This document shows, one piece after another, positions 3,999 through 28,811 of a stretch of DNA of 43,022 bases (positions are counted from its first letter, which is position 1; every line of letters starts with the position of its first letter). The notes under the pieces are model-generated. The model did not search any database. It saw only the letters and a program-made list of their open reading frames with translations, and was not told the origin of the DNA. The DNA lies in the IMG/VR virus record IMGVR_UViG_3300042691_019400, positions 1 through 43,022 of that record; one strand, written 5' to 3'. This DNA comes from a virus. Made by a program: the position numbers and the translations under genes.

Positions 3999-4517
3999 TT
4001 ACAATCCTCTAAATTCATTATCTACAACAGCTGAAGCAACTATTGTTCTATAATATGGTCTATAACCAGCATAGTTATGTTTATTGTCCGATACAACCCT
4101 CCCATCATTATTTACAACATAATATCTAATTCTATCCTCAGTTTCGTTATAACCCAAATAATCCCCAAAATTAATATCAATTCCCAATTCATCCAATTGT
4201 TTTTGATAAATTGAAAATCTCATATTACCAGGTTCAGTTTGATTAATACCAGGTTTATTACCCGCAATCATTTTATTCTCAGGTGCTGATATTTGAACAT
4301 ATCCTTTCAATTCAATTGGGGGTAGAAATTTAATTCCATCCTTTAATGCTTCACCATATACATCGTCAGTCTTTGTTTTCATTCTATCTATACGATATAA
4401 TACAATGGTAAAGTTCATATCTCCATATAACCATTCCTCACCCATTGATATATCCAATTGATAATCATTTGCGTCAAAGAATTTACCAATTCTTGTTATA
4501 GGTATTTTGTTTGTCAT
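3999..4517 (-). CDS. Neck protein, gp14-like (probable)
   Basis: I choose the ATG at 4517 (MTNKIPITRIGKFFDANDY, 172 residues). The frame is open upstream to 4625, but that extension would run into the divergent helicase gene, and an ATATTTAT element lies 4 nt before the chosen start. The protein has a LDELGIDINFGDYLGY segment followed by RIRYYVVNNDGRV. This recalls the part of T4 gp14 that reads EPKEGDLIYFPMDNSLFEI and is common in neck proteins that join the head to the tail. It lies immediately upstream of the gp15-like and sheath genes, as gene 14 does in T4. The direct sequence evidence is modest, and other head-completion or tail-completion proteins remain possible. Confidence 0.5.
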   Translation of the reverse strand: MTNKIPITRIGKFFDANDYQLDISMGEEWLYGDMNFTIVLYRIDRMKTKTDDVYGEALKDGIKFLPPIELKGYVQISAPENKMIAGNKPGINQTEPGNMRFSIYQKQLDELGIDINFGDYLGYNETEDRIRYYVVNNDGRVVSDNKHNYAGYRPYYRTIVASAVVDNEFRGL

Positions 4518-4521
4518 ATTG

Positions 4522-4529
4522 ATAAATAT
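4522..4529 (-). promoter_or_regulatory. ATATTTAT element before gp14-like gene
   Basis: The minus strand reads TTAATATTTATCAAT and then the ATG, so only 4 nt separate the element from the start codon. If it is a -7 type promoter box, the mRNA would be nearly leaderless. It occupies the 31-nt gap between divergent genes. Confidence 0.45.
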
Positions 4530-4548
4530 TAAGATATCAACTATTTTT

Positions 4549-6330
4549 ATGTTAAAATTTACTTTGAGTTTAACAGGTAAAACATCTAATCTTATTGAAT
4601 CTAAAGCACTTGATATTTTGGACACATATTCAGGTGGTAATAACTTTATTTTAAAACTAAAACATCATAAAGAAACCAATAAGAAATTCTATCCAACACG
4701 TTCACAAGCTGAATATATAATTAACTATCATTCAGTTGAACCAAAGGTTGCCAAGAAGTGGGTTAATATTGAACCTTATTTTGCAAATAAAATTGCGGAT
4801 GAAAAAAATATGTTAACAATCCCAACTGATATATGGGTTGAAAAGTTATTGGTGGATAAAGATAAATCATATCATATTTGGGGTAGATTTAACTCAGGTG
4901 ACACTTTAACTGATATTTGGTTACCCAAGGCCGCATTACTAAAAACTCACAACACAGAGGAAGTTAAGATTGATTATTCAAAGTATGGTCATAGACCTCC
5001 ACTTGAACATCAAAAGATTGCAATAGAAAAATTGGTTGGTAGTAAAAGATTTATTTTAGCTGACGACATGGGACTGGGTAAGACCACGAGTACAATCATC
5101 GCGGTACTTGAAACTGATGTAAAGAAAATATTAATTATCTGTCCAGCATCACTTAAAATAAATTGGGAAAGAGAAATTAGGAATTATACAGATAGAAGTG
5201 TTTATATATCGGAGGGAAAGAATTTCTCTACTGACCACGACTTTGTTATTGTGAATTATGATATCCTTAAAAACTTTTATGATTTAAAAAATAAAGAGAA
5301 TTCACCAATAGCAAAAGCTAATTTTGATTTGGTTATAATTGATGAAGCTCATTATATCTCCAATCCCCAAGCCGCAAGAACAAAACTAATAAATGACTTC
5401 GTAAAGAAATCAAAATATCTTTGGTTATTAACTGGTACACCAATGACAAATCGACCAATTAATTATTACAATTTATTGAATCTAATTGAAAGTCCTGTGG
5501 CTCAAAATTGGATGGCTTATGTTATTCGTTATTGTCAAGGTTATCAATTTAAAGCTGGGAATAGAAAAGTGTGGAATGTTAATGGTGCATCCAACTTGGA
5601 AGAGTTAAGAGATAGAACATCAAGACAAGTATTGAGAAGATTAAAAACTGATGTATTAGATTTACCTGAAAAGATTATTACCCCAATCTATTTGAGATTA
5701 AAATCAAAACAATATGAAGAATTGATGGGAGAATATTATGAATGGTATAATAAACATCCAGAAGAATCAAAGTCATTGACAGTTCAATTCAATAAACTAA
5801 TGAAAGTAAGACAAGTTATTGCTGATGAAAAAGTTCAGGAGACAATTGGTTTAATTGAGAATATATCGGAACAAGGTAAAAAGGTAATTGTATTTACTAA
5901 CTTTACTGATAGTTTACAAAAAATACATTCCCATTTTGGAAAACAATCAGTTTATTTGGATGGGACTTGTAGTAAAGCTCAAAGACAATATTCTGTTGAC
6001 CAATTCCAAGAAAACGATAAAATAAAAGTATTCGTTGGGAATGTACAAGCAGCAGGTGTTGGTATTACATTAACCGCAGGTGAGGTTGTATTGTTTAATG
6101 ATTTATCTTTTGTTCCTGCACATCATCAACAAGCGGAAGATAGAGCTTATAGATATGGTCAAAAAAATTGTGTTTCAGTTTATTATCCCATATTTGAAAA
6201 TACAATTGAAGGGGTTATCTATGATATGTTAATTAATAAAAAGAATATTATTGACACTGTAATGGGTGACAATTTGGATAAGGCCGAATTCATTGAACAA
6301 ATTATGAATAGGATTAATACCCCCCAATGA
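4549..6330 (+). CDS. SNF2-family DNA helicase/translocase
   Basis: The likely start is the ATG at 4549 (MLKFTLSLTGKTSN, 593 residues); an in-frame TTG at 4507 would overlap the divergent neck gene. Numbered from this ATG, the SNF2 helicase motifs are: motif I ADDMGLGKTT (171-180), the DEAH box (265-268), LTGTPM (motif III), QAAGVGITLTAG (motif V) and QQAEDRAYRYGQ (motif VI, 527-538). The first ~145 residues form an N-terminal extension similar in position to the accessory region of SMARCAL1-type enzymes. SNF2 phage helicases are ATP-driven duplex-DNA translocases used in replication-fork remodelling or recombination, a role close to that of T4 UvsW. The TGA stop overlaps the upstream-most ATG of the next frame. 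Confidence 0.88.
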   Translation: MLKFTLSLTGKTSNLIESKALDILDTYSGGNNFILKLKHHKETNKKFYPTRSQAEYIINYHSVEPKVAKKWVNIEPYFANKIADEKNMLTIPTDIWVEKLLVDKDKSYHIWGRFNSGDTLTDIWLPKAALLKTHNTEEVKIDYSKYGHRPPLEHQKIAIEKLVGSKRFILADDMGLGKTTSTIIAVLETDVKKILIICPASLKINWEREIRNYTDRSVYISEGKNFSTDHDFVIVNYDILKNFYDLKNKENSPIAKANFDLVIIDEAHYISNPQAARTKLINDFVKKSKYLWLLTGTPMTNRPINYYNLLNLIESPVAQNWMAYVIRYCQGYQFKAGNRKVWNVNGASNLEELRDRTSRQVLRRLKTDVLDLPEKIITPIYLRLKSKQYEELMGEYYEWYNKHPEESKSLTVQFNKLMKVRQVIADEKVQETIGLIENISEQGKKVIVFTNFTDSLQKIHSHFGKQSVYLDGTCSKAQRQYSVDQFQENDKIKVFVGNVQAAGVGITLTAGEVVLFNDLSFVPAHHQQAEDRAYRYGQKNCVSVYYPIFENTIEGVIYDMLINKKNIIDTVMGDNLDKAEFIEQIMNRINTPQ

Positions 6331-6348
6331 TATTTATAAGATATTTAT
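6330..6348 (+). promoter_or_regulatory. Tandem ATATTTAT elements before the SOD fusion gene
   Basis: Two copies, ATATTTATA at 6330 and again at 6341, precede the ATG at 6354, the second with a 5-nt gap. Their presence argues for the 6354 start over the in-frame ATG at 6327, which overlaps the helicase stop. Confidence 0.5.
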
Positions 6349-6353
6349 ATCTT

Positions 6354-9134
6354 ATGGAAAAGAAATTAGAACTATTAAAAGAAACTATATTATTAGGTGA
6401 AAGTTTAATAACTGAAGCTAAAAAGATTGGTATTGATAAATTACCATATGGTTATGACTCACTTACAAGATTCATTGATGTAAAAACAATGAATGTTCAT
6501 TACAACAACCACTATAAAGGATATGTTAAGAAACTTAACGATGCCTTATCAAAAAAGAATTATGGTAATGTTGAATTGGAAGATATAATCAAATCAATAA
6601 CAAGATATCCAAAAGTAATTAGAAATAATGGTGGTGGTGCTTACAATCATTCATTATTTTGGAAAATGTTATCACCTGAGAAACAAACAATCAAAGGAGA
6701 AATATTAACCAAAATTAATAAAGAATTTGGGTCTTACAAAGAATTTAAGAAGAAATTTGAAGAAGAATCTATTGGAAGATTTGGGTCAGGTTGGGCTTGG
6801 TTGGTATTAACCAAAAACAATAGATTGAAAATTATGACAACACCAAATCAAGATAATCCCCAAATGAATGACATTGATGGTGGTTATCCTTTATTGGGAT
6901 TGGATTTATGGGAACACGCCTATTATTTGAAATACCAAAGTAAAAGAGATGAATACATTAAAAGGTTTTGGGATGTTGTAAATTGGGAATTCGTTAATGA
7001 TGTTTATTTATCAAAGTTAAAGACAAAACTAAAGGAATCTATAAAATCTAATAAAGTTATTAATGAAGAAGGTTCATACAAAAATTTCAAATACAATCCA
7101 ATAAAAGATTTTGGTAAGGTTACTGAATTTATAAAGGAAAATGGTAGAATTAATCCAAAGGTATTTGATGTGATGTTACCTAAAGTATATCCAAAATGTT
7201 CACCTGAAATTATTAATGACTATAATAAAGACACACATATAACTGAACCTTGTTTTGGAAAAATTAAAACCAATGATTGTGAAACAAACTATGGTGTAAT
7301 AGGTGGTAAATATGCTGTAAGTCAAAGAGGTGGAATTGGTGAATGGTCTGTTATAAATTGGTTTGATGCAAACACCAAAGTTAGTGATAAAATATTAGAA
7401 TATTTTGAAAAATACAATAAGGAGGGATTAGATTTTATTAGTTGGTTTTTTAAATTGAAAAAAACATTACTAAGTGATGATGGTAAGTTTACTGGTGAAT
7501 TAGCTGATTTTATAATGAACCCCCAAACTAAAAAAGGAACATTAGATTATGGTTCATCTCGTGAAAGTTTGGCTCTTGAAATATTGAATAAAGAATATGG
7601 CAACTCAAATATTACTAGATTTTGTGATGGTGATATAAGGGATAAATATAAAGGCCAAGATATGAAATTAACAAATGAGGATATATCGGAATATATTCAA
7701 GTTAAACCAACAAGAGATTTATATGAAACTAATATTGATGGTCAAGTAAAATATGTTTTCAAAAGTAAAAACAAATATACACCTAATAATATTAACATAT
7801 TTGCATTTATTGATAATATTAAAAACTATGTATTTTTTGATTTTAAAAATGTTGAGGTAAAAGAAGATGGGGGACAATCCAAGGAAAGATATTCTTATAT
7901 TTTCAAATCTGAAAACATTAAGTTTAAATCAAATACGTTAAGATTAAATAAATTAGTAACAGAATCAAAACTTAAAAAAATAATAATAACTGAAGAACAG
8001 AAAAAACTTATAGAAGCAATTATCTTTCAAAAAGAAAAAAATTTAATTGAACAACTATGTAGCTTCAAAGAAGTTGATAATATCTATTGTCATTTTCAAC
8101 GAGTAATCGATAGTATTGAAGGTGAAGAAAAAGAAGAAATAATAAAAGCTGCGGATACTATAATTAATTTTTATTATCCACAAATGGCAACAAGATTAAA
8201 AGATAAAGGACAAGTTAGATATATTGTTTTTGGTGGAGGTATAGTTTACAAAATATTAGAATTAGCATTAAAAAATGATTTACCTGGTAATTTTATCAAA
8301 ACTATTGCCAAATTTATAACTAATCCAACATTTGATAATACTGAAACTGAAAATAGATTAAAAAGATTAAAAAAACAATCCGATATTAAAACTGAAAATC
8401 TTGATAATTTTTTAAGTCAAGTTAGAGAAAAAACATACTCAAATTATGAAACAAGTTTGGAGGGTGATTATATGGGAAAATACCAAACTTCACTAGAGTT
8501 AAAATATAATTGTGATAAGTTTGAAAAACGTAATTTTGTTAATGTCGTTGAAATGGTTAAAAGTGGTCAGAAAGGTTTGGATGAAGTTATAAATGATTTA
8601 GTTGAATGTATTACTAACAATATGAAACAAACAAATCCAATTAAAGCGGATTTAATAGCTAAATCAGATTTTTATTATAATGACAAAGTAATATTTAAAA
8701 GAGGAGACAAATTTGAAGTAAAAATGATGAGTACTAATGTTGATAGTTATCTTTCTGAATTTTTCTCAATTTTTAAACGAAGTAAAGTAATTAAAAAAAT
8801 TAAAGATACTCACTTAGACGTTTATAATCAAATAATCAATTATTTACACTATGAACTTTTTGACCATCCTATTGTCATAAGTTTCTTAGAAAAAATTAGA
8901 AATAATATTGCTGGTATTTTCTTTGAAAATAATGTTGTAGTACCAATTCAATATATTAAACTTTATTGGTCTAATAAAGGACAAAAAACTTGTACCGAAA
9001 GTAGATTAAGTATTCGTTTTAAAATTATTGACTCAAATGTAATATCGTACATTTATGATAAAAATACCAATGAACTTCAATTAAATACTGAACCTATTAA
9101 AGTGGATGATTTTAAAGAGATTGATTGTTGGTGA
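6354..9134 (+). CDS. Superoxide dismutase fused to two nuclease-like regions; candidate packaged polyprotein
   Basis: From the ATG at 6354 the protein has 926 residues. Residues ~28-225 are an Fe/Mn superoxide dismutase, converting superoxide to peroxide and oxygen. All four metal ligands are present: H49, H99 (NNGGGAYNHSLFW), D184 and H188 (LDLWEHAYY), plus Tyr57 and the FGSGWAWLV signature. GGG before the second ligand and Q166 in PNQD favour the Mn or cambialistic type. Residues ~245-530 end with D436 and EYIQVK (446-451), compatible with a PD-(D/E)xK nuclease. Residues ~556-926 contain D766 and FEVK (787-790), again nuclease-like. The N-terminus ends in SLITE|A (E21), the first linker contains VINE|E (E238), and residues 540-555 (LKKIIITEEQKKLIEA) repeat the N-terminal tag of the metallopeptidase at 10278. 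These fit T4 prohead protease sites, (L/I)-x-E. The SOD call is firm; nuclease calls are tentative. Confidence 0.85.
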   Translation: MEKKLELLKETILLGESLITEAKKIGIDKLPYGYDSLTRFIDVKTMNVHYNNHYKGYVKKLNDALSKKNYGNVELEDIIKSITRYPKVIRNNGGGAYNHSLFWKMLSPEKQTIKGEILTKINKEFGSYKEFKKKFEEESIGRFGSGWAWLVLTKNNRLKIMTTPNQDNPQMNDIDGGYPLLGLDLWEHAYYLKYQSKRDEYIKRFWDVVNWEFVNDVYLSKLKTKLKESIKSNKVINEEGSYKNFKYNPIKDFGKVTEFIKENGRINPKVFDVMLPKVYPKCSPEIINDYNKDTHITEPCFGKIKTNDCETNYGVIGGKYAVSQRGGIGEWSVINWFDANTKVSDKILEYFEKYNKEGLDFISWFFKLKKTLLSDDGKFTGELADFIMNPQTKKGTLDYGSSRESLALEILNKEYGNSNITRFCDGDIRDKYKGQDMKLTNEDISEYIQVKPTRDLYETNIDGQVKYVFKSKNKYTPNNINIFAFIDNIKNYVFFDFKNVEVKEDGGQSKERYSYIFKSENIKFKSNTLRLNKLVTESKLKKIIITEEQKKLIEAIIFQKEKNLIEQLCSFKEVDNIYCHFQRVIDSIEGEEKEEIIKAADTIINFYYPQMATRLKDKGQVRYIVFGGGIVYKILELALKNDLPGNFIKTIAKFITNPTFDNTETENRLKRLKKQSDIKTENLDNFLSQVREKTYSNYETSLEGDYMGKYQTSLELKYNCDKFEKRNFVNVVEMVKSGQKGLDEVINDLVECITNNMKQTNPIKADLIAKSDFYYNDKVIFKRGDKFEVKMMSTNVDSYLSEFFSIFKRSKVIKKIKDTHLDVYNQIINYLHYELFDHPIVISFLEKIRNNIAGIFFENNVVVPIQYIKLYWSNKGQKTCTESRLSIRFKIIDSNVISYIYDKNTNELQLNTEPIKVDDFKEIDCW
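7971..8018 (+). other. Internal tag-like segment (candidate protease-cleaved targeting peptide)
   Basis: These 16 codons encode LKKIIITEEQKKLIEA inside the 926-residue fusion. The segment closely matches the first 16 residues of the metallopeptidase at 10278 (MKIIITESQYKLLLEA). An N-terminal tag found at an internal domain boundary suggests that a formerly separate gene was fused. The (L/I)-x-E followed by A would permit cutting by a gp21-like prohead protease. Confidence 0.5.
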
Positions 9135-9150
9135 TATTTATATATAAAAA
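9134..9150 (+). promoter_or_regulatory. ATATTTATATATAAAAA element before gp13-like gene
   Basis: This 17-nt sequence begins at the stop of the preceding gene and ends 6 nt before the ATG at 9157. The same extended form occurs, on the other strand, before the genes starting at 18959 and (with CTATTTAT) 22699, at nearly the same distance from the ATG. Confidence 0.5.
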
Positions 9151-9156
9151 CTAACT

Positions 9157-10278
9157 ATGTCAATAATTCCAGAACCAGAAAGAACACAATTATACACACG
9201 ATTGAGACATCTATTAGGTGCTCCTCTTAGAAGTATTGAATTGGAAGATGAACAATTAGATTCTTTATTAGCATTATCCATTGAGGATTACGCCCAATAT
9301 ATTCAAGATTGGCTAATTGAGTCTCAATGGTCATCATTGTATGGTTTAAATTTAGACACAGAATCATTAACCAAGGCATTCATCACCAAAAGTTTTGATT
9401 TTGAAGAACGTTATTCTTACGCATACTCAAAAATAGTCGGATTACAAGCAGGTGGGGATAATGTAATGAAGAAAGATTACATACAACTTGTACAAAATCA
9501 ACAAATATATGAAATACCTGCTGGTAGAGAAATAAATGAACTCTTATGGTATACTCCAGCAACACTTAATAATTTATTATTTGACCCTTGGAGTTTTGGT
9601 GGTTTAGGTGGTGTTGGGTTAGGAGGTCCAGCTGGATTTACACAGATGGGTTATGGTGGTTCATATTATATGATGCCAGCTTTTGATATCTTATTAAGAA
9701 TGCAAGAAATTAACATTCAAAGAAGAATTATTGCGGGTGATTTAACTTATCGAGTTACAGCTTTACCTGATGGTAAAAAAGCTGTTCATTTAATGCAAAC
9801 ACCTGGTGGTAAATTCGATTTTGGTAATTCATCGTTAATGAATGGTAAAGTTTGGTATTGGTATTATGAAGCTGATGGACCTGATAGAGATGATTGCTTG
9901 AAGAAAAATCCTGATATAATCAAATTACCTTCAGATGTTCCACTTAGTAAAATTGGTTGGTCAGATTTAAATAATCCTGCTCAAATATGGGTACGTAGAT
10001 GGTTTTATGCAACAGCCAAAGAAACCTTAGCAAAGGTTAGGGGTAAGTTCAGTGGTAACATCAAAACACCTGATAGTGAACTTACAATGGATTATCAGTC
10101 ATTGGCAACCGAAGGTAAAGATGAGAAAACAAAATTAATCGAAGAATTAACTGGTGCTGAAGGTAAATTAACAAGATTAAGACCTGAAAAAGTAATGGAA
10201 CGTGAAGGTTTAATTGCCGAAAATCTAAACAAGGTAAAGAAATTCCAAGCTTTGCCAAGACAAATATACGTAATCTAA
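9157..10278 (+). CDS. Neck / head-tail connector protein, gp13-like
   Basis: The protein has 373 residues. Its N-terminus (YTRLRHLLGAPLRSIELEDE followed by QLDSLLALSIEDYAQY) has the shape of gp13-family neck proteins, which start with a helical repeat of the form LR..LGAP...EL.DEQ.D..L..AL..Y. A Gly-rich loop (FGGLGGVGLGGPAGF, about residues 148-162) precedes the central region. A C-terminal helical segment (WFYATAKETLAKVRGKF, then KTPDSELTMDYQSLATEG) corresponds to the helical end of gp13 homologues. gp13 sits on the portal side of the neck and connects head to tail. It lies on the opposite strand from the gp14- and gp15-like genes, unlike T4. The TAATG overlap with the next gene indicates translational coupling. 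Confidence 0.65.
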   Translation: MSIIPEPERTQLYTRLRHLLGAPLRSIELEDEQLDSLLALSIEDYAQYIQDWLIESQWSSLYGLNLDTESLTKAFITKSFDFEERYSYAYSKIVGLQAGGDNVMKKDYIQLVQNQQIYEIPAGREINELLWYTPATLNNLLFDPWSFGGLGGVGLGGPAGFTQMGYGGSYYMMPAFDILLRMQEINIQRRIIAGDLTYRVTALPDGKKAVHLMQTPGGKFDFGNSSLMNGKVWYWYYEADGPDRDDCLKKNPDIIKLPSDVPLSKIGWSDLNNPAQIWVRRWFYATAKETLAKVRGKFSGNIKTPDSELTMDYQSLATEGKDEKTKLIEELTGAEGKLTRLRPEKVMEREGLIAENLNKVKKFQALPRQIYVI

Positions 10279-10904
10279 TGAAAATAATAATAACAGAATC
10301 ACAATATAAACTTCTTTTAGAAGCTACTGAAGGTTTGGATGAATTTCTTGAAACCTTAAAAAACGAATTAAAATTAAGTGATGAACTAATTGATGAAGTG
10401 AAATCAATATTTGAAAAAACTGATTGTAAAAAAGTTTCGTTTGAAAACTTATCAGGCCCTATGGGGTTAGCTTTACATAATAAATTAGTAATTAATATTA
10501 TTGTTTTAGATACGAAGTATATGTCTATATATGGCCGTAACGCTATTACTCAAACACTTTTTATTATCTTCCACGAATTAGCACATCAATATCAATTTAA
10601 AAAATATGGTGAGGAAAAAATGATGGGTCTTTATTTAAACGAAATACCTTTAGATGAAGCAGCCGAATCTATGGCGAAATATGAAGCTGTTGCCGATGAG
10701 TTTGCAATAAGAAAAGTTAGAGAATTACAACAAAAAAAATTATTACCTATGGATGTGAAAGCACGTAAAGGTTATGGTAACTATCCTTCGCCACAAATAT
10801 TTAAAGGTATGTTAGAAAAGATTAGAACAGAACTAACAAGAAGTGGTGTTGATAATATTGATAAAGCTGCAGAATATATCTATAATATGGTAAAACCAAG
10901 ATAA
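10278..10904 (+). CDS. HExxH metallopeptidase with N-terminal capsid-tag-like peptide
   Basis: This 208-residue protein carries a zincin signature HELAH (H99, E100, H103) and, downstream, YEAVADEFA (E136 to D140), the arrangement of a third zinc ligand in ImmA/IrrE- and gluzincin-like peptidases. A catalytic zinc peptidase is therefore likely, though the substrate is unknown. Residues 1-16 (MKIIITESQYKLLLEA) look like a detachable tag: a basic/Ile-rich start and an L-L-E|A site at E15. The same tag occurs inside the SOD fusion protein encoded two genes upstream. Its ATG overlaps the gp13-like stop codon, so it is made with a virion protein. This supports packaging into the capsid and delivery into the host, but it could also be a morphogenetic protease or a lysis factor. 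Confidence 0.75.
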   Translation: MKIIITESQYKLLLEATEGLDEFLETLKNELKLSDELIDEVKSIFEKTDCKKVSFENLSGPMGLALHNKLVINIIVLDTKYMSIYGRNAITQTLFIIFHELAHQYQFKKYGEEKMMGLYLNEIPLDEAAESMAKYEAVADEFAIRKVRELQQKKLLPMDVKARKGYGNYPSPQIFKGMLEKIRTELTRSGVDNIDKAAEYIYNMVKPR

Positions 10905-15479: not shown

Positions 15480-18400
15480 TTATGCGTTTATGTTATTGAT
15501 GTTTAAAACATCACTATTATCATAATAAGACAATCTTAATGTCCCATCATTTCTACTAAATATTTCACAATTGTAATCACCATAAACATAGGTTGCTAAT
15601 GTAAAGTCAATAGACTGAACCCTACTATTTATTATATTAAGTCTAAAATCATTACCAATAGTATTAGACTCAAAGTAATTAATTAAAATTTTATTTTGTG
15701 TAAAATTATTACCAATACTATTATTATAAAAATAATAACCGATAAAATTATTATAAAAATTATCACCAATAGTATTAGCATTGTAACCAAAACCTATTTC
15801 ATTTGTATTAAAATTATTTCCAATATTGTTAGCATTAAATCCACCACCAATTACATTTCCAACAAAATAACCATTAGTGTTGTTATTATTAAACCTATTA
15901 CCAATTTCATTGTTTTGGAATTTTGAACCACCAAATGAATCATTTAAAGTATTATTAAAAAATTCATTTCCAATATCATTTCTGTAAAATTCAACATCAA
16001 TAGTATTACTATAGAATTCATTACCGATTAAATTATCGTAGAATTCATAATTAATTACATTACCACCACTAGTTTGAGAACCATTATCACCAAAGTAGTT
16101 TCCAATGTTGTTATTTTTAAATCCTGTGGAAATAATATTTTGTGTTCCAGAACCAGCATTACCAAAGAAGTTTCCAATTTTGTTATATTGGAAATCAGAA
16201 TCAATCTCATTAAATGCTGAGTAGTTACCCAAATTATTAGATATTAAATTATTACCAATTGCAGTTGGAAACCCTCCAATACCTGAGTTACCAACAAATA
16301 AATTACCTATTGTATTATCTGAGTTATTTTGACCAAATACATTAAACCAAAAATCGTTGCCAATTTTATTGTTAGTAAAGTTTAAATCAATCGCATTGAA
16401 TATAACATTATTACCAATAGTATTAAATTGGAATCCATCGTTTATTATATTTCCACCATCATTGTTACTACCTCCACCAGTTGTTGGGAAATTAGTATCA
16501 TTTCCAAAATAATCACCAATTATGTTGTTAGTAAAGTTATCAAAAATAGTATTTTTGATATTACCACCATTATTACCAAAGTAATTACCAATTTTATTGT
16601 TAGATAAGTTATTACCAAGTAAATTGTTCTTGAAAAAATCTCCGACCTGATTATTAGCAAACGTATCCCCAATATTGTTATTATAAAATTCAAAACCAAT
16701 CACATTCTGTTCAAAGTCAGAACCAACAATATTATTGGTAAAATAATTACCAATAAAGTTATTATAAAAATATTGACCAATAGTATTATTTTGAAAGAAA
16801 TCATTTATTACATTACCTTGAGGACTACTTCCACCATATCCAAAATCACTATCAATTGTATTATTAGTAAAATAATTACCTATTTTATTATATCCAAATC
16901 TTTCACCATTATTAGGTTGGGTGTAAACTGAATTCCATTCCGTATCACCAGGACCTGGCCATTGACCTCCAAATGGAGGTACATCAGTAATTGTATTATA
17001 TAGACCACCTTGTGATTGTCTTGATAATTCAACAACACCAGGAACAACTACATCTATCTCATTTCCATAATTCGTTTTTGTGAAAATTATTACTTGACCT
17101 ATTTGATTACCATTTGAATCAAGTTCAGTTCTTTCATATTGAAATCCTCCACCATTACCTCCTTGAGTCCATTGGTTAAATTTAATTTTGAAATATTGTG
17201 ACGTTGAAATAACTTTCATTATTAATTCCTTACCTAAAATGTTATTACCAACGTTATTATTCAATGAAATTAGTAATGAGTTATAGGTTCTTGTTGAAAT
17301 TGTTGATAAATCATTCCACCCAAAAAGATTTGAATTTGTGGGTTGATTATTTGTAAAATATTCACCAATATTGTTACCAAAAAATTCGTTACTAATTATA
17401 TTACTATTAAAATAATACTTAGTTGTATTATTATAAAAATTGTCATTTATTCTATTATTGTTGAAAGCGTTCCCAATATTATTAACACGGAAATAAGAAC
17501 CAATTATATTATAGTTAAACCCATTTAATATATTGTTACCAACAAACTCACCATTAATTTCGTTTCCTTGGAAATTTGTTAGGATTTGATTGTTTTGGAA
17601 ATCCTGACGTATAATATTACTATTAAAATAATTACCAATATAGTTTCTGTAAAAACGGAATTGTGTTAAATTACCATAATCACCAATAATATTATTCTCA
17701 AAACGTAAATTAATATTATTGTCGTAAAATCTTGAATAAATAATATTATCTCTAAATTCATTACCAATTGTGTTATTTTCAAAAGCGTCATCATTTTCCG
17801 CAAATAATTTATTATATTGAAAATAAGAACCAATATTATTTCTTACCAAGTTGTCATTGATTATATTATTATTAAAATAGTGACCTATGATATTATCATC
17901 AATATCATTTGTTGATACGTTATTGTAACAGAAATCACCCCAAGTATTATTTTGATTATCAGTACCCCAAGTATTATTATAACAATAATCTCCAAATTTG
18001 TTACTTTCGTATTGACCTTCTAAAAATACGTTATTTGATAATAAAAACCCATTACCTTCATTTTGATAGTTATTAGCTTGATTTCCTATGTAGTTATTTT
18101 TTGCGTACTCATTAGATATAGCATCACCGAATGTTGTATATTCTAGATAATCATCACTTTTAACATTTGTTCTTTTATAACTAAAATAACCTGAACCATT
18201 TGTTTCTTCAATTGTACGATAAAAATAAACTCCAGAAGTTGGATTAATTGTGTCTCCTGAAACAATCATATTATTATTATCAATAATATTAACAATTTCA
18301 AAGTAATTTGGGTTGGTAGATGGTGTATATATTATATCACCAACTGAAAGAGCTGAAAATGTAGTATTCGTACCTAAAATAGTACCATCACTTTGTAATT

Positions 18401-18959
18401 CAAAAGTTCCATTGATTCTTAACTCTTCTCTGTATGTATATAATCTATATCTTTTGAAAAATACATTTCTATGGTCATAATCAGTTCTATTATTAAACTC
18501 ATCTATTCTTTCTGTGATTCTACCTTTTGCGGGTGTATTTGAAATTTCAGTAGTTGTAAAATTAATATCGTATGTTAATCCATCATATGGATAGTCCAAA
18601 GAATAAACTTTATCCGCTAATGTATTTACACTTGTTGCAAAAACCAAAAGTTGTTCAGTTATACCAGTCTTTGAATTACCAGTTATAATTGGATTACCAT
18701 CATAATCAAAATCAGGTTGGTCATAAATTGATTGAAAATCTGTTATTAAATAATATCCTCCAGGTGTAAGTGTTGAACCTGTGTACATAGAATATAACTC
18801 CTCATAAGTTACTTCTTCATATGAACCACCACCAGTTGATAAACCTGAATAAGGTATATGATATGTTGCTCCACTAAGTTCTACAGCGAACAAAGTGTCT
18901 GATGTTATTCCTGTTAGTAGTGCTAATTCACCAATTGTTTTTCCTGTTAAAGTTGCCAT
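15480..18959 (-). CDS. Giant nonapeptide-repeat solenoid protein (putative receptor-binding fibre)
   Basis: The protein has 1159 residues. Residues 1-40 (MATLTGKTIGELALLTGITS onwards) form a short attachment-like start, followed by a beta domain to about 280. Residues ~285-545 and ~690-1115 consist of tandem nine-residue units of the form [I/V/L]-G-x-x-F-x-N-N-x, for example VGDFFKNNL, IGDTFANNQ and IGNYFTNNI. I estimate 60-70 units. They are interrupted at ~550-690 by an unrelated beta domain containing a Pro/Gly-rich loop. A final ~45-residue cap ends the protein. Regular hydrophobic positions and Asn ladders predict a beta-solenoid; the period of nine differs from the five of pentapeptide repeats. 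Its place beside another large fibre suggests host recognition. Confidence 0.75.
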   Translation of the reverse strand: MATLTGKTIGELALLTGITSDTLFAVELSGATYHIPYSGLSTGGGSYEEVTYEELYSMYTGSTLTPGGYYLITDFQSIYDQPDFDYDGNPIITGNSKTGITEQLLVFATSVNTLADKVYSLDYPYDGLTYDINFTTTEISNTPAKGRITERIDEFNNRTDYDHRNVFFKRYRLYTYREELRINGTFELQSDGTILGTNTTFSALSVGDIIYTPSTNPNYFEIVNIIDNNNMIVSGDTINPTSGVYFYRTIEETNGSGYFSYKRTNVKSDDYLEYTTFGDAISNEYAKNNYIGNQANNYQNEGNGFLLSNNVFLEGQYESNKFGDYCYNNTWGTDNQNNTWGDFCYNNVSTNDIDDNIIGHYFNNNIINDNLVRNNIGSYFQYNKLFAENDDAFENNTIGNEFRDNIIYSRFYDNNINLRFENNIIGDYGNLTQFRFYRNYIGNYFNSNIIRQDFQNNQILTNFQGNEINGEFVGNNILNGFNYNIIGSYFRVNNIGNAFNNNRINDNFYNNTTKYYFNSNIISNEFFGNNIGEYFTNNQPTNSNLFGWNDLSTISTRTYNSLLISLNNNVGNNILGKELIMKVISTSQYFKIKFNQWTQGGNGGGFQYERTELDSNGNQIGQVIIFTKTNYGNEIDVVVPGVVELSRQSQGGLYNTITDVPPFGGQWPGPGDTEWNSVYTQPNNGERFGYNKIGNYFTNNTIDSDFGYGGSSPQGNVINDFFQNNTIGQYFYNNFIGNYFTNNIVGSDFEQNVIGFEFYNNNIGDTFANNQVGDFFKNNLLGNNLSNNKIGNYFGNNGGNIKNTIFDNFTNNIIGDYFGNDTNFPTTGGGSNNDGGNIINDGFQFNTIGNNVIFNAIDLNFTNNKIGNDFWFNVFGQNNSDNTIGNLFVGNSGIGGFPTAIGNNLISNNLGNYSAFNEIDSDFQYNKIGNFFGNAGSGTQNIISTGFKNNNIGNYFGDNGSQTSGGNVINYEFYDNLIGNEFYSNTIDVEFYRNDIGNEFFNNTLNDSFGGSKFQNNEIGNRFNNNNTNGYFVGNVIGGGFNANNIGNNFNTNEIGFGYNANTIGDNFYNNFIGYYFYNNSIGNNFTQNKILINYFESNTIGNDFRLNIINSRVQSIDFTLATYVYGDYNCEIFSRNDGTLRLSYYDNSDVLNINNINA
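15600..18110 (-). repeat. 27-nt coding repeats of the nonapeptide solenoid
   Basis: Imperfect units of about 27 nt encode [I/V/L]GxxFxNNx throughout this span, with a non-repeat break at roughly 16890-17330. The units are diverged at the DNA level, so the repeat is maintained at protein level. Confidence 0.8.
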
Positions 18960-19003: not shown

Positions 19004-22000
19004 TTAACAAGTTCCCCAAACTGGTCTTGGTAATACCCAAGATGTTGCATTAGTATCAAATTGTGCTGGTAATGATGGAATATTTGTAACACACCAACTA
19101 CTTAAATCTTGATTGAATGAAAATGAGTTAAAAAACATATAATCCATACTTGTTACATTACTTACATTCCAGTTAGTAATATCTTGGTTAAATAATCCAT
19201 TTGAAGTAAACATATAACTCATATCGGTTACATTAAACACATTCCAATTTCCAATGTATTGATTAAATGGTGTTGTATTAAACATAGATGACATAGTTGT
19301 AACATTGTTTACATTCCACCCACTTAATGGTTGATTAAATTGTGAACTAGCAAACATACCATTCATATAAATAACATTTGATACATCCCATCCACTAATA
19401 TCTTGATTAAATGGTGAATATGCAAACATAGAACCCATATCAGTAACACTACTTACATTCCATCCACTTAATGGTTGATTAAATTGTGAATTATTAAACA
19501 TACTATTCATACCAGTAACATTAATAACATTCCAATTATTAATATCTTGATTAAATGGTGTACCATAAAACATTAAATTCATATCAGTAACATTACCAAC
19601 ATTCCAATTTCCAATATTTTGATTAAATGGTGTACCATAAAACATATAACTCATAGTAGTAACATTGCTCACATTCCAATTTCCTATATTTTGATTAAAT
19701 GGTGTACCATAAAACATATAACTCATAGTAGTAACACCACTCACATTCCAACCACTTAATGGTTGATTAAATGGTGAACTAGCAAACATATTACTCATAT
19801 TAGTAACATTACCAACATTCCAATTTCCAATATATTGATTAAATTGTGAATATGCGAACATACCAAACATTTGTGTAACACTACTTACATTCCAACTACT
19901 AATATCTTGATTAAATGGTGTACCATAAAACATATTACTCATATTAGTAACATTACCAACATTCCAACTTCCAATATCTTGATTAAATGATGTATTATAA
20001 AACATACCAAACATTTGTGTAACACTACTAACATCCCAAGAATTGATATTATTAATTGTTGTGATACTTGTACAATTTCCAAACATACCATACAATGAAG
20101 TTATACCCATTAAATTAATTGTATCTGTAACACCAGTTAAAACTAAATTTGAACAATTAAAGAAGTAATAGTTATTATTAGTAAGTCTCAAACATCCCCA
20201 CCTTTGAATCTCAATTAGTTTTGGTGCATCAGTTGGATAACTATAAAAATTATAACCAATTAATGTCCCTTCGATTGTAACTACATAATCACCTGCAACT
20301 GAATATGTGTGAGTTCTTTCTGATTGATTCCAAGATGTAATTGTATCTGTATTTCCATCTCCCCAATCAACTATGAAATCATATGTTCCACTACTTTCTA
20401 ATGGTAATGTTATTGATTCAGATGGAGATGTTGTTCTCCATACAGATATGAATGGATTTGGTGTTGGCCAAGTTTTGGTATTTGTTATTAATATTTGTAT
20501 TTTAGCTGTTTGAGTATTAGGGTCAGTTTGTAACCAAGTAGTTCCACCATCAGGTGTTTGCCATCCAAAAGTATTTGGTACTGCATTAGGATAAGCTGGT
20601 GAACCAAAGTTTAACACTGGATATAAATTTGTTGATGATGGTGCTCCCTCAACACCATATGGTGCTTTTCTAACATAATAACTTCTTGTACCTGCATCTA
20701 ATAATGGAGCATTACCCATATATATTGGAGCACCAGTATGGAAAGTTGTAGTATAACCAAACTCAATTGTTCCAACTTGATTCCAAGATTCAGCAATGAA
20801 ACCAACAACATAATAATTTTGAGGTAAAATTAATGGTGTATTTGCATCTATTGTACCAAAAGTTGTTGTTAGGAAACCAGTTGCTGGAGCTCTTGTATCT
20901 ACTTCCAAATCTGTATTACCAATTTTAACAACACCATCAACATTGTTGAAAATATTATCGTATTCTGTCTTAGTAATCTTAACCCAATTATTAGTTATTG
21001 TATTTTCATAATCAGTTAAACTTGTTGTTAATTGTCCTTTTAACGCATCATAATTTGGATCAGTAACATAAGATGGTGCTAAGTTTGCCCCAAAATCTAT
21101 ATTTACACTAACTGTTGTACTTTGACCTGTTGATGAGAATGAACCCCCAAATATATTCCACCCAGCAAATAAATAACCAGGTTGAGGTACTGATTCAATA
21201 CTATAAAACTGATTTTTATTTATTGTCAATAATGTATCATTTGTATAAGTAACACCATCAAATATTATTGATTGACCACCACTAATAGTTTGAATAAACA
21301 ATTGTAACTCAGCCTGTGGTATTGGTGATTGAGTTGGTGTTGGTGTAGGTGTCTCTGATGATGTAGGTGTTATAGTTGGAGTCGGAGTTGGTGTCTCTGA
21401 CGATGTTGGTGTAATCGTTGGAGTTATCGTAGGTGTAGGTGTCGGAGTTTCTGTTTGAGTAGGTGTAGGTGTAATCGTTGGAGTTATCGTAGGTGTAGGT
21501 GTCGGAGTTGGTGGTTGTTCAAATTGTATTTGATTTGCCGAGAAATTAATTGGAAAATCAATACTTGGAGAATCAATGAACAATTCACCAGTTTGATTCA
21601 AACTATAAAAATTCAAAGAAGAATTATTAGTAATAGTTTGACCTGATGTTTGATTCGCAGGGATAATAACCGTTGCCGAAATGTTTACACTTCCACCACC
21701 AATTAATCCCAAATTAAGAGATAATGGTATTGAAACAACTTCATTTATAGGTATATTAGAAGTTATTGTAAATGTTGTTATAACCGAACCACTTGCAATA
21801 TAAACGTTTACAAGATATTCCAAAGTTGGGTCAACATAACTCAAATACTCATCACTACCAACCTCAATATACACATCAGTTTCATCAGTTAAAATAGCAT
21901 CAATTATTTGTTGTGCAGGTGTTGGAGTAGGTGTTGGTGTTTGACTTGGAGCTGGTGGAAATATTGAATTAAATGTTTCTACAAAATTGTAAGCAATTGG

Positions 22001-22699
22001 ATAAGTAACCGAAATATTACTAAATGTTGAAGTTCCATCCAAATTATAATAATCATCAGGTAATATAACCTCACCGAATCCAATATTTGAACCCGCATTT
22101 ATTGTAATACCAGTTGAAATTGTTAATCCTGTTCCGACTAATTGTCCTAAAGTATTTGTGAAATTTAATATTAGTGTATTTGATAATATCTCAGAAGATG
22201 TTACAACATAATCAACCTTTACTGAACTTGGTGTTATAACACTAACTATATTTAAATTTATAGTTATTGCTGTTGTTGGTCCATTAACACAACAAGGAAA
22301 TTCAGATATGTAACAAGAATCATATTCCAAATCATCAGCAATATAAGATTCTTGAACATTTATATATAATTTTTCTCTAATGGGTAATATTAAAACACCA
22401 TCAGAACTTCTTAACATAAATTGACCTTCGTATCTACCAACTCTATTTGTATCTCTATTTTGGAATTGATAATATAGATAATATTCCTTTTCAGCATTTG
22501 GGTCAACATTCGTCTTCTCAACAAATCCTGCAGGTCTTGAAACAATCTTTTCAACACCAGTTTCTGTATCAACCATAGAAAAAAATAAAGCAGATTGTTC
22601 TATCAAACTCATAAAGTTGTTGTAGTCCAATCTACCATTCTTAACCACTTGTAATTTAAGAAGAGGTAAAGTTGCGTTCTTCTTTATAAAAAATTCCAT
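19004..22699 (-). CDS. Large tail-fibre/adhesin with Thr-Pro linkers and DUF285 repeats
   Basis: The protein has 1231 residues. Residues 1-130 ([20 protein letters not shown] onwards, with [17 protein letters not shown]) resemble BppU-type baseplate-attachment domains. Beta domains follow, separated by Thr/Pro-rich linkers (QTPTPTPTP near 255 and a longer one near 395-460). An InlB-type repeat-like domain ([20 protein letters not shown]) comes next, then a PKD-like strand pattern ([12 protein letters not shown]). The C-terminal third holds 13 tandem 24-residue units of the form NVxxVTxMxxMFxxxxFNQxIxxW, the DUF285/BspA-like repeat of surface proteins. A Cys-containing cap ends the chain. It is probably a host-binding fibre. 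It faces the gene at 22746 across a 46-nt divergent promoter region. Confidence 0.8.
19085..20045 (-). repeat. 72-nt tandem coding repeats (13 DUF285 units)
   Basis: The repeats encode [14 protein letters not shown]-type units of 24 residues. Several neighbouring units are nearly identical (for example two reading [19 protein letters not shown]), indicating recent duplication or gene conversion. The high identity makes unit-number change by slippage or recombination likely. Confidence 0.85.
21408..21509 (-). repeat. 60-nt-period direct repeat in Thr-Pro linker
   Basis: A 42-nt sequence at 21408-21449 recurs exactly at 21468-21509, within a longer array of shorter PT-coding repeats (21321-21513). 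It encodes alternating Thr, Pro and Ile. The near-identical DNA could mediate recombination with the linkers of the fibre genes at 34330-35580 and 36174-39965. Confidence 0.75.
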
Positions 22700-23655: not shown

Positions 23656-25179
23656 ATGAAAAACATTTTATTACTTCTTATTTTTATCCCCTCCATTTTA
23701 TGGTCACAAACCTATCTACATGGTACTACAGGTATTCAAGGAGAACGAGTTACCAATTGTTTAGTATCTACTTGTAGTGGAACTTATCTTGATAATGGTG
23801 GTGCTGGAGGTAACTACTCAAATAGTATTCTTGGTGGACTTTATCGTGTATTTTGTCCAACAGTACCTGGTAATTGTGTTAGGGTTACATTTAATTCATT
23901 TAGAACTGAAACGGGTTTTGATTTTTTAACCATAGGTAATGGTGCAACTCAGAATTCACCAGTATTTACAACACCTCCAGCGACAGTTCCAAATGGTAGA
24001 ATTTCAGGAGCACCTGCCGTACCATTTACATATACAGCTAACAATCCTAGTGGATGTTTAACTTTTAGATTCACTTCTGATGGGTCAATAACTGACGCAG
24101 GATGGAGTGCTTCATTGTCTTGTGTCCCTTGTGCAACACCCACTAATGGTCCAAATACCACAGATAATAATGATTGTTCAAGAGCAACTTTTATTTGTTC
24201 AGACATAACAACCAATGTAAATGCAAGAGGACCTGGACTTACAGCTGAAGGATGTGTTGGTACTACTTGTCCTGCTGGTGGTGAAAACCATTCTAATTGG
24301 TATCAATTTGAAATATTATCTAGTGGTACTTTAAATTTCACCATTGACCCCCAAACAAATACCGATGATTATGACTTTAGTATATATGGTCCTAATGTAA
24401 CTTGTGGTACTTTGGGTACTCCATTGAGATGTTCAGACTCAGGTAATACTGGAAATACTGGATTAAATACAACAGCAGTTGATAATGTTGAAAGTGTTAC
24501 AGGAGATGGATTTTTAGCTCAAATGAATGTAACTGCAGGTCAAACTTATTATTTGGTTGTAGATGAGTGGTTATCTAATACTGGTAATGGTTATCAATTA
24601 TTATTTGGTGGTACTGCAACATTGGATTGTGTATTATTTCCCCTTGAATTATTATCATTTAATGCCGAATATAGAAAAGATTATAAAGATGTTTATTTAA
24701 CTTGGGATGTTATTGTTGATGACTATATTGATGGATTTATAATTGAAAAATCATTAGATGGAATTAATTTCGATTCTATTGGTATTGTTAATGTAACAAA
24801 CCTAGGAAAAAGATATTATGACTTTAATGACAATTTTCCCAAACCAAATGGATTTACTTATTACAGATTAAAATGGTTTGAAGATGGTCAAATGTTATAT
24901 TCTGATATATCCGCGGTTGTAGTAAATGACCCAAAATTAAATGATGTTCTTGTTTACACAAAAGATAATAATTTGATATTAGAAAATTTTAGTGTTAAAG
25001 GTGAAACTTTTAATTTAAAAATTTATAATAATATGGGTCAGTTAGTTTACTCAAGACCTAATATATTTTTGATTTCTAATATAGAAATGTTAAGTTTAGA
25101 TAATTTTGGAATTGGAGTTTATAATATTGTTGTTGAGACAGATAAAAATTATACAACATATCGATTTATAAAATCATAA
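23656..25179 (+). CDS. Secreted CUB-domain protein with type IX secretion sorting domain
   Basis: The protein has 507 residues. Residues 1-18 (MKNILLLLIFIPSILWSQ) are a Sec signal peptide of Flavobacteria type. Residues ~30-150 resemble a CUB domain (FDFLTIGNG, then SGCLTFRFTSDGSITDAGW and a Cys). Residues ~160-325 are a Cys-containing, PPC-like beta domain (DYDFSIYGPNVTCG, YYLVVDEWL). Residues ~330-425 form a fibronectin-like beta-sandwich (PLELLSFNAEY, GFIIEKSLDG, YYRLKWFEDG). Residues ~430-507 are a type A T9SS C-terminal domain (LKIYNNMGQLVYS, GVYNIVVET, ending YRFIKS). In Bacteroidetes such proteins cross the outer membrane by T9SS and are attached to the cell surface. It was probably acquired from the host. 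It has its own terminator and no visible co-transcribed partner. Confidence 0.85.
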   Translation: MKNILLLLIFIPSILWSQTYLHGTTGIQGERVTNCLVSTCSGTYLDNGGAGGNYSNSILGGLYRVFCPTVPGNCVRVTFNSFRTETGFDFLTIGNGATQNSPVFTTPPATVPNGRISGAPAVPFTYTANNPSGCLTFRFTSDGSITDAGWSASLSCVPCATPTNGPNTTDNNDCSRATFICSDITTNVNARGPGLTAEGCVGTTCPAGGENHSNWYQFEILSSGTLNFTIDPQTNTDDYDFSIYGPNVTCGTLGTPLRCSDSGNTGNTGLNTTAVDNVESVTGDGFLAQMNVTAGQTYYLVVDEWLSNTGNGYQLLFGGTATLDCVLFPLELLSFNAEYRKDYKDVYLTWDVIVDDYIDGFIIEKSLDGINFDSIGIVNVTNLGKRYYDFNDNFPKPNGFTYYRLKWFEDGQMLYSDISAVVVNDPKLNDVLVYTKDNNLILENFSVKGETFNLKIYNNMGQLVYSRPNIFLISNIEMLSLDNFGIGVYNIVVETDKNYTTYRFIKS

Positions 25180-25413: not shown

Positions 25414-26272
25414 TAAGTGTAAAATTGAAAAAGATGTTTGTGAGTTTAGCCTTAGAAAGAGTTCAAAAGATGGTTTACAGATATGGTGTAAATTGTGTTT
25501 AACTCAGTATAGAATAAAATATAATATAGATAATTTTGAGAACAACAAGAATTATCAAAAAAATTACTATCAAAAAAATAGTGATAAAATAATACAAAAA
25601 ACTAATGATTATAAAAATAAAAATTATGAAAAATTTGAAGAGTATTACAAACTATATTATTTAAATAATAAAAAGAAGATAAATAACACAAATAAAAAAT
25701 ACTATAAAGATAATAAACAAATAATTGCTGAAAAATCAAAAATTTTTAGAAGTGAAAACAAAGAAAAAATAAAAGAAAATTATAAAAAATATTATCAAAA
25801 AAATAGTAATACAATAATACAAAAAACTAAAAATTACAAAAATAAAAATAAAGAAAAATATAAAGAATATTATAAAGTATATAATAAAGAGTACAAAATT
25901 AATAATCCTGAAAAGATAAAAGAACTAACTAAAAAATACAAAAAAAATAAATTACACACAGACCCTATACACAGATTAAAAATTAATATGAGAGCTAGGG
26001 TGTTTAATTTTTTAAAATCTAAGAATATTACTAAAAAAAATAAAACCTTTGATATTGTTGGTTGTACTCCTAAATTCCTTAAAGAACACATTGAAAACCA
26101 ATTTACTGAAGGGATGTCGTGGGAATTATTTGGTGTTGGTATACATATTGACCATATAGTACCATTATCATCGGCAAAAACTGAGGAAGAAATATATAAA
26201 CTCTGTCATTATACTAACTTACAACCATTATGGGCTAAAGATAACCTCAAAAAGAGTAATAAAATTCTTTAA
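25394..26272 (+). CDS. HNH homing endonuclease
   Basis: The protein has 292 residues. An N-terminal zinc ribbon is marked by C6/C9 and C32/C35. A long Lys/Asn/Tyr-rich middle (about 45-200) contains loosely repeated NYKNKNYEK..YYK units, probably helical DNA-contacting repeats. The C-terminal catalytic HNH module contains HIDHIVPLS (H251, D253, H254), the middle Asn in NLQPLW (N275) and DNLKKSN (N284). The DNLKKSN ending is typical of free-standing phage HNH endonucleases, which cut DNA lacking the element and spread by repair. The gene's composition is even more A-rich than its neighbours, consistent with a mobile gene. Its stop overlaps that of the glycosyltransferase gene by four bases. 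Confidence 0.85.
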   Translation: MTTKICSKCKIEKDVCEFSLRKSSKDGLQIWCKLCLTQYRIKYNIDNFENNKNYQKNYYQKNSDKIIQKTNDYKNKNYEKFEEYYKLYYLNNKKKINNTNKKYYKDNKQIIAEKSKIFRSENKEKIKENYKKYYQKNSNTIIQKTKNYKNKNKEKYKEYYKVYNKEYKINNPEKIKELTKKYKKNKLHTDPIHRLKINMRARVFNFLKSKNITKKNKTFDIVGCTPKFLKEHIENQFTEGMSWELFGVGIHIDHIVPLSSAKTEEEIYKLCHYTNLQPLWAKDNLKKSNKIL

Positions 26273-27939: not shown

Positions 27940-28811
27940 TGTTTAATTTCTTCTAAAACTTTGTAGAAACTTTTATTAATGTTAAGATAATCGGTGGGAT
28001 AATCTTTGGTTATATTGTTTTCGTGCAACCAAGTATCAAAATAAAAAGGGTTAAATAATTCTTTATTATCAGCATAAATTAAAGATATAAATTGTTCCTC
28101 CGAATAAAGTTTTTGTTCTTTTGGTGTTATGTCTAAAAAAATGTTTTCAAATAACTTAATAAAGTTTTCCATTTTTTCTTTTTTTCCACCAAAAATTCCA
28201 CCAATTATATGATATGTGCTATCATAAGTTTTGTAATAATTTTGAGGTATTGTATTTGACCAATAGTTTGAACCCACATTTGATTTACCAAGTATCAATA
28301 TTTTATCTCCTGATTTTTCAATTAATTTCGTTAAAAAACTATTATCAAAAAAATTAGAATCAAAATATCTTTGATATGTGTTATTGTTTATTAAATGTTT
28401 GTCAGGTATTATACCACAATGACTTAATCCAGCATCAATCCAATAAACATAATCATAGTTAGACAATTCATCTAAACTCCAAAATAATTTATTATATTGT
28501 ATTTCAAAACATCTATCCCCCTTCTTAATTGATTCAATATCTTTATATCTTGAATAGATTTCTTTATGTTTTGAGTCTTTTAATTCAAATGTTTTAAATT
28601 TTAGTTTATCTCTTGAAACATTGTGTTGGGTATAAAAAAAATTCTCTAGTTCATTTAATTCTTGATTATTGGTATAACAAACAAAATCCGCATCATTCAT
28701 TCTCATTAATGATAATAAACTATATCTGTAATGTTCTTTTCTACTTGGTCTACCCCCATACTCAGTACCATATAGATTAGAATAAATGGTTGTTATGAAT
28801 TTTATTTTCAT
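27936..28811 (-). CDS. HtrL/YibB-like putative glycosyltransferase
   Basis: The protein has 291 residues. It starts MKIKFITTIYSNLYGTEYGG and contains DYVYWIDAGLSH (D126) and GGIFGGKKEKM, the paired motifs of the HtrL/YibB group, which match the N-terminal half of its neighbour at 26269. The family is close to GT-A glycosyltransferases, and WIDAG holds the probable metal- or sugar-nucleotide-binding Asp. It overlaps both flanking genes by four bases (ATGA type), so the three are one operon. Substrate unknown. The resemblance to the neighbouring domain suggests an old duplication. Confidence 0.65.
   Translation of the reverse strand: MKIKFITTIYSNLYGTEYGGRPSRKEHYRYSLLSLMRMNDADFVCYTNNQELNELENFFYTQHNVSRDKLKFKTFELKDSKHKEIYSRYKDIESIKKGDRCFEIQYNKLFWSLDELSNYDYVYWIDAGLSHCGIIPDKHLINNNTYQRYFDSNFFDNSFLTKLIEKSGDKILILGKSNVGSNYWSNTIPQNYYKTYDSTYHIIGGIFGGKKEKMENFIKLFENIFLDITPKEQKLYSEEQFISLIYADNKELFNPFYFDTWLHENNITKDYPTDYLNINKSFYKVLEEIKQ

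Follow-up and report, generated by a model that had tools for sequence, protein, structure and literature searches.

The subject of this study is a gene at positions 6,354 to 9,134 of a viral DNA stretch of 43,022 bases, hereafter the window, which is the IMG/VR record IMGVR_UViG_3300042691_019400, a fragment without head genes from a T4-like phage described as large and freshwater. The gene product combines a superoxide dismutase (SOD) with two further modules, M1 and M2, and is, in our judgement quite probably, a capsid-targeted cargo polyprotein that would be processed into its parts inside the prohead and delivered together with the DNA, its modules diversifying as cassettes. Domain content, conserved sites, short peptide tags, exchange of modules, a protease in relatives and the fold of M1 were computed, and from these we infer packaging, cleavage, injection, catalytic activity and target. 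Capsid targeting and cleavage are supported because cleavage-type sites are conserved, capsid and scaffold proteins bear such sites, stand-alone M1 and M2 genes are tagged and exchange occurs at the junctions.

The SOD domain covers residues 27-216 and matches the Fe/Mn families PF00081 and PF02777 (E 5e-20 and 7e-40; scores of the N and C domains 72 and 136 bits against Pfam cut-offs of 27 and 20.9), and it aligns over its full length with solved Mn/Fe SODs, the best entry in the PDB being 5n56 (E 1.2e-61). An initial annotation of this DNA had described a complete Mn/Fe enzyme with the ligands H49, H99, D184 and H188; it is borne out by these matches and by the ligands, which are invariant among relatives (nine aligned proteins). 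By the ratio of nonsynonymous to synonymous substitution rates, which is 0.07-0.14 in the SOD and 0.15-0.53 in M1 and M2, the SOD is under strong purifying selection and the other two modules less so. On its sequence, the enzyme is assigned as a real, intact SOD of the Mn type. Outside the SOD, neither Pfam nor PHROGs gives a match for the window protein, PADLOC gave nothing useful for M1 and M2, and in 50,697 annotated phage records the matches are to the SOD part only, no record having M1 or M2. One stand-alone M1 matches phrog_5018, of unknown function (E 3.5e-5), and M2 was not found in the 84,980 bacterial and archaeal genomes searched, so that a host origin or prophage residence could not be traced in this way.

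Both extra regions had been annotated as nuclease-like on the basis of an acidic residue followed by an (E/Q)-V-K element typical of PD-(D/E)xK nucleases, and the nuclease-like motifs are indeed invariant across the respective alignments: E404, D436 and Q449-x-K451 in M1 (18 sequences, identity down to 26%), and K764, D766 and E788-x-K790 in 41 of 41 aligned sequences of M2. As regards the fold, whose lack in structure predictions had been named in advance as an objection, the assignment holds for M1. Residues 389-527 of its AlphaFold2 model (mean predicted local distance difference test score, pLDDT, 87.6) match the homing endonuclease I-Ssp6803I (Z 9.2), the SPARDA nuclease (8.8), Hjc (8.6) and DpnI (7.5); the top 18 structural entries (Z 6.6 to 9.2) are Hjc-type resolvases, I-Ssp6803I, the SPARDA nuclease and DpnI, with restriction enzymes lower, and Foldseek alone found no match to the model at E <= 0.001. 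We predict M1, with good confidence, to be a PD-(D/E)xK nuclease. For M2 the model (pLDDT 85.5) gives weak support for such a fold, its best structural matches (DpnI Z 5.4, HinP1I Z 4.0) scoring too low to set chance aside; M2 is a probable nuclease. The presence of DpnI among the matches of both modules would fit a methylation-dependent target, which is only a lead. A further module found in relatives, M4, is related to M1 (hhalign 96.9%, E 1.7e-10) and has the E..D..QxK set in common with it; M1 and M2 themselves gave no sign of relationship when their profiles were compared.

The prohead protease gp21 of T4 cleaves at the pattern (L/I)-x-E. Three such sites had been noticed in the window protein, and all exist: LITE↓A (E21), VINE↓E (E238) and KLIE↓A (E554), the arrow marking the expected cut; a fourth, E228 (KLKE↓S), is better conserved. 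All eight [LI]xE[ASGQEN] sites of the protein lie within residues 16-21, 228-262 or 547-566, at or beside the junctions. Conservation was examined in 36 non-redundant SOD proteins, requiring [LIV] at P3, Glu at P1 and a variable P2, and triplets of this kind occur at three places only: in the propeptide, directly before the SOD and directly after it. The triplet just before the SOD has a P1 Glu in 36 of 36 proteins and a P3 [LIV] likewise in 36 of 36, with seven residue types at P2, and in that just after it (E228) Glu reaches 94% and [LIV] 91%, with nine residue types at P2, this position being among the most variable columns at the bracketing sites. The only other conserved [LIV]xE, the LWE of the SOD, is catalytic and has an invariant Trp, and the same test found no conserved variable-P2 site in the interiors of M1 and M2. 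A fixed P3 and P1 with a free P2 at domain borders would be the expected trace of selection for an (L/I)xE protease. Furthermore, SOD-only and unfused forms retain the bracketing site.

Sites of the same type are found elsewhere in the proteomes of these phages. The major capsid protein has LINE↓ATS at the expected end of its propeptide, identical in three contigs, and the scaffold protein has an L(K/T/N)E↓Q site; across eight contigs, residues 8-40 of the encoded proteins show a 4.7-fold excess of [LI]xEQ (family-weighted p 2.7e-8), where control patterns reach at most 1.6-fold. T4 gp21 and related proteases of giant phages cleave after Glu (PMC5694885). The gp21-like protease, whose lack had been named in advance as an objection, is encoded in seven related contigs, the window fragment itself being without a match: one of them, the contig of L002, has a Peptidase_S77 (PF03420, E 1.9e-24) and a protein 95% identical to the window protein over residues 1-549, and the six others bear different arrangements of the same modules. 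The gp21-like gene of L018 occupies contig positions 27735-28454.

The second line of evidence is a peptide tag. The internal peptide KKIIITEEQKKLIEA had been equated with the N-terminal tag of a protein of the same cluster, and it does match the N-terminus of the protein encoded at 10278-10904, MKIIITESQYKLLLEA; read to its site, it is KKIIITEEQKKLIE↓A, lies ahead of M2 and is similar to the start of that gene's product, MKIIITESQYKLLLE↓A. Most stand-alone M2 genes and the stand-alone M1 genes start with the tag, whose consensus is M-(K)-I-I-I-T-E-x-Q-(Y/L/F)-x-x-(L/I)-x-E (45 distinct N-terminal tags), and its conservation runs to position 15, (L/I)13-x-E15, and then stops. The DNA that encodes it is varied (41 distinct 24-mers among 50), therefore selection acts on the peptide, and conservation at the DNA level is ruled out by this codon variety. 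A tag profile run over about 1,080 open reading frames (ORFs) matches at N-termini or, internally, only at module starts of polyproteins, the single further match, at residue 29, looking like a mis-called start; moreover, inner tags are retained between proteins that differ by 40-70%.

Tagged genes of other kinds were also observed. In L088, positions 4047-4904 encode a cell-wall hydrolase (PG_binding_1 and Hydrolase_2) with the tag MKIIITESQ, which would be a virion-borne lysin if the tag means packaging, and which would otherwise weaken the capsid-targeting reading. L088 (4047-6817) and L166 (G014, about 152-172 kb) contain runs of small consecutive genes, nearly all starting with MKIIITE(S/N)Q or close variants, that look like arrays of tagged cargo genes.

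Relatives of the window protein are encoded at thirteen loci of viral contigs, and among these first relatives the C-terminal part varies: some are SOD-M1-M2, some SOD-M1-M1b, one is SOD-M2 and two are SOD alone. Alignment-based searches brought the loci to 27 for M1 and 78 for M2. Counted over 57 complete non-redundant ORFs in IMG/VR, there are eleven architectures, namely metalloprotease-SOD-M2, SOD-M4, SOD-M1-M2, SOD-M1-M1b, SOD-M1-M3, SOD-M2, SOD, a hydrophobic membrane-type domain with M2, and M1, M2 or M4 by themselves, so M1, M2 and M4 are found both fused and stand-alone. Metalloprotease-SOD-M2 is among the commonest, an SprT-like metalloprotease (HEWVH) being fused before SOD-M2 in L092, L095, L100, L113, L126, L132 and others. 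With few exceptions, the SOD-bearing forms are flanked by the same SNF2 helicase and neck gene, and about nine different arrangements occur between these two boundaries, a synteny count that includes overlapping loci of one contig.

The borders of these replacements can be followed in the DNA. Between the window and L007 identity is 93-100% in the SOD, 13-92% (mostly 62-85%) in M1 and 85-98% in M2; between the window and L003 it stays near 97% across the SOD and most of M1, with divergence at the M1/M2 junction; and L008 and L009 have the SOD and M1b in common and M1 not. The breakpoints of exchange fall at the linkers. Upstream of the SOD start, L003 and L008 cannot be aligned pairwise to the window (about 45%), though their SODs are 97-100% identical to it, and exchange may occur at the left border too. 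The interval between helicase and neck gene is a cassette locus, where the SOD is as a rule retained and the nuclease-type modules turn over, in fused or unfused form.

The mechanism that we propose would begin with entry of the chain into the core of the prohead, recruited by the propeptide and probably also by the internal tag before M2. Inside, a prohead protease of the gp21 type would cut after (L/I/V)-x-E at about E21, E228/E238 and E547/E554, which would remove the propeptide and free the mature SOD, the predicted PD-(D/E)xK nuclease M1 and the probable nuclease M2. Once freed, the enzymes would stay packaged beside the DNA and pass into the host when the phage infects it, where the SOD might limit superoxide at the start of infection and the nucleases might act on host or competing DNA. 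Delivery of the nucleases together with the DNA is plausible, and the roles of the SOD and nucleases in infection are the least certain part of the proposal. In a wider form, to which we lean with somewhat less assurance, each enzyme of such a virion-cargo polyprotein is led by a tag or site, the head protease separates the chain, the junctions double as points of exchange, and the (L/I)xE tag of about 15 residues would serve large T4-like phages, probably those of Bacteroidota, as a capsid-targeting code throughout the genome, by which virion cargo could be recognised from sequence alone.

Several observations weigh against this proposal. Packaging and cleavage are deduced from sequence, and the proposal offers no account of how a nuclease would stay inactive beside packaged DNA. 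A gp21 profile search of the 43 kb window record found nothing, although the controls were silent too and the record is without head genes; for this reason the relatives were searched, and there the protease was not found in 32 of 39 related records, all of which are linear and may be fragments, although some are large (G016, of 214 kb). The fold evidence for M2 is weak. As for the tags, 16 of 45 have no Glu at position 15, the propeptide of the SOD belongs to a type other than MKIIITE, and the frequent metalloprotease-SOD-M2 form starts without any tag, so that an N-terminal targeting peptide is not universal. Finally, a cell-wall hydrolase and arrays of small proteins are also tagged, and the meaning of the tag may be broader than capsid targeting.

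The protein might instead be an uncleaved multidomain enzyme working in the infected cell and not in the virion, its SOD and nucleases joined so as to be expressed together, in which the junctions are flexible linkers, LxE is a helix-capping element and the nucleases, with the SNF2 helicase, degrade host or superinfecting DNA. The helicase does adjoin the modules in nearly every arrangement, charged linkers often hold LxE by chance, and the cleavage reading comes from sequence. Chance or helix capping would have to account, however, for a P1 Glu and a P3 [LIV] that are fixed while P2 is highly variable, on both sides of the SOD only, for the same site in capsid and scaffold proteins, and for stand-alone modules that bear the same tag and SOD-only or unfused forms that keep the site, and we consider this explanation unlikely. 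The breadth of the tag has another possible meaning, that of a general N-terminal signature with some other role (localisation, stability or expression level), the polyproteins being simple read-through fusions of adjacent tagged genes and the inner tags fossils; a tagged cell-wall hydrolase, tagged arrays of small proteins of unknown function and unfused neighbours of the same genes in the same locus would all fit. A fossil or a signature of this sort is nevertheless hard to reconcile with a tag that ends in (L/I)xE and whose conservation stops exactly there, with inner tags that persist in proteins 40-70% different and with a codon variety that excludes conservation of the DNA, and we give it little credence.

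The least probable of the three alternatives, to which we assign only a slight chance, keeps packaging and injection and changes the protease: a polyvalent protein would be cut by a metalloprotease, its own in the metalloprotease-SOD-M2 form and the adjacent SprT-like protein here, as proposed for DdrB of phage P1. That architecture is among the commonest, a tagged SprT-like protein is encoded two genes further downstream in the window, and autoproteolysis has been proposed for polyvalent proteins (PMC5512222). The sites, on the other hand, match the gp21 pattern and the site of the capsid protein, and the window fusion has no peptidase domain. Cutting by a prohead protease of the gp21 type is the reading that we retain.

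The features of the window are collected in Table 1. An alternative in-frame ATG at 6327 would add 9 residues to the protein and overlaps the helicase stop; the start at 6354 is favoured because L001 has no upstream extension and because the TATTTATA elements lie just 5' of it. An assembly artefact was ruled out as the source of the polyprotein, independent contigs carrying the same fusion, and so were frameshifted neighbours, since one open frame spans all modules in many relatives.

Table 1. Features of the cassette locus and its borders in the window (strand as in the record; aa, amino acid residues)
Feature	Position	Strand	Basis
SNF2-family helicase, constant left boundary	4507..6330	+	Pfam, PHROGs, synteny
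Two TATTTATA elements, promoter-like	6331..6349	+	upstream of 6354 start
Putative cargo polyprotein SOD-M1-M2, 926 aa	6354..9134	+	ORF intact, open
Putative N-terminal propeptide, aa 1-21, end LITE↓A (E21)	6354..6416	+	P1 Glu 36/36, P3 [LIV] 36/36, seven P2 residue types
SOD module, Mn-type, aa 22-228, end KLKE↓S (E228)	6417..7037	+	Pfam, PDB match, dN/dS
Linker, sites E228 (LKE↓S) and E238 (INE↓E)	7035..7067	+	E228 conservation: Glu 94%, [LIV] 91%, nine P2 types
Module M1, aa 263-527	7140..7934	+	alignment; AlphaFold2 pLDDT 87.6
Predicted PD-(D/E)xK nuclease domain of M1, aa 389-527	7518..7934	+	structural matches; E404, D436, Q449, K451 invariant
Internal tag KIIITEEQKKLIE↓A, aa 540-554	7971..8015	+	matches N-terminal tags of 10278-10904, stand-alone M2 and M1 genes
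Module M2, probable nuclease, aa 555-926	8016..9131	+	K764, D766, E788, K790 invariant (41 aligned); pLDDT 85.5
Neck / head-tail adaptor protein, constant right boundary	9157..10278	+	phrog_211 E 6e-10, synteny
SprT-like metalloprotease-type protein, tag MKIIITESQYKLLLE↓A	10278..10904	+	PF10263 below cut-off

Of 262 upstream regions (G001, G002 and G004 included), 35 contain the element TATTTATA, where 4.5 would be expected; those of TerL, the gp22 scaffold, neck and fibre-like genes are among the 35. The element is a candidate phage promoter, and a further copy lies at window positions 9135-9142. The T4 late promoter TATAAATA is present in the window in chance numbers only. With TATTTATA lying 5' of its gene, the polyprotein is probably made late.

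Other genes of the window include two on the minus strand that are fibre-like: a protein of 1159 residues with degenerate NN-x-IG-x-x-F repeats (15480-18959, probably fibre-like) and one of 1231 residues with six DUF285 repeats (19004-22699, E 1.9e-168), which is variable in length and has 885 residues in the L002 contig. Three consecutive genes of sugar-transfer type (26269-30058, minus strand) encode an HtrL_YibB protein, an unassigned one and a GlcNAc transferase. A secreted-type protein on the plus strand (23656-25179) has a C-terminus with a weak match to the type IX secretion kind (Por_Secre_tail, E 0.006), which is a hint of a Bacteroidota host.

Should the proposed reading be right, the virion cargo of tailed phages would come from polyproteins that the prohead protease matures, and the head-bound proteins of uncultured phages would be marked by a short, readable tag, so that their cargo could be listed from metagenomes and tested. 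This would bear on the long-standing question of what large phages inject and how such cargo diversifies. It would also add, among phages, an example of an antioxidant enzyme that is injected and of injected nucleases that can be swapped, with relevance to early host takeover, phage-phage competition and the use of T4-like heads as carriers of several enzymes.

The initial annotation had stated that no phage system with this arrangement was known, and none was found: the literature searched, which excluded subscription papers and preprints, yielded no phage polyprotein cut into several enzymes by a prohead protease and no packaged phage SOD. SODs of the same Fe/Mn family are encoded by isolated phages (Vibrio phage 2.275.O and Pseudomonas PA5oct-like), with 29% and 25% identity, respectively, to that of the window. 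A virion-carried SOD is known from chlorovirus PBCV-1, whose Cu/Zn enzyme is made late, cells infected by SOD-bearing virus having less superoxide (PMC7019647); it differs in belonging to an unrelated SOD family, to a eukaryotic virus and to a stand-alone protein. Polyvalent proteins, including P1 DdrB, resemble the window protein in having many effector domains per chain, a predicted packaging and, in some architectures, a metallopeptidase, whereas the processing proposed for them is by a built-in peptidase, SOD is not mentioned in that account, and the part of it considered here describes no repeated targeting tags with gp21-type sites (PMC5512222). Set against the polyvalent proteins of Iyer et al. 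(2017), the window protein is multi-domain and phage-encoded, but SOD is outside what that paper mentions and M1 and M2 have no Pfam match. In SPN3US and phiKZ, proteases of the gp245 type cleave many head and ejection proteins after Glu, with several cuts per propeptide; the motif differs, being A-x-E, the cuts remove propeptides, and in the part of the source considered separation of several enzymes from one chain is not reported (PMC10052503). A phage polyprotein of the kind proposed would, by analogy, be processed like those of animal viruses.

The closest likeness is to the internal proteins of T4, which have a targeting peptide, are cut by gp21 and are injected (PMC9958956, PMC12373910). 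Like IPI, IPII, IPIII and Alt, the window protein has a short N-terminal peptide ending at a Glu-type site, here a predicted one, for the prohead protease; it shares with them a variable accessory locus and a predicted injection with the DNA, and the gp21-like protease is encoded in related contigs. In T4, however, each short propeptide precedes one protein only, a small inhibitor or an ADP-ribosyltransferase, whereas the window chain holds several enzyme modules with internal sites and tags, and its putative cargo is a SOD together with nuclease-type domains.

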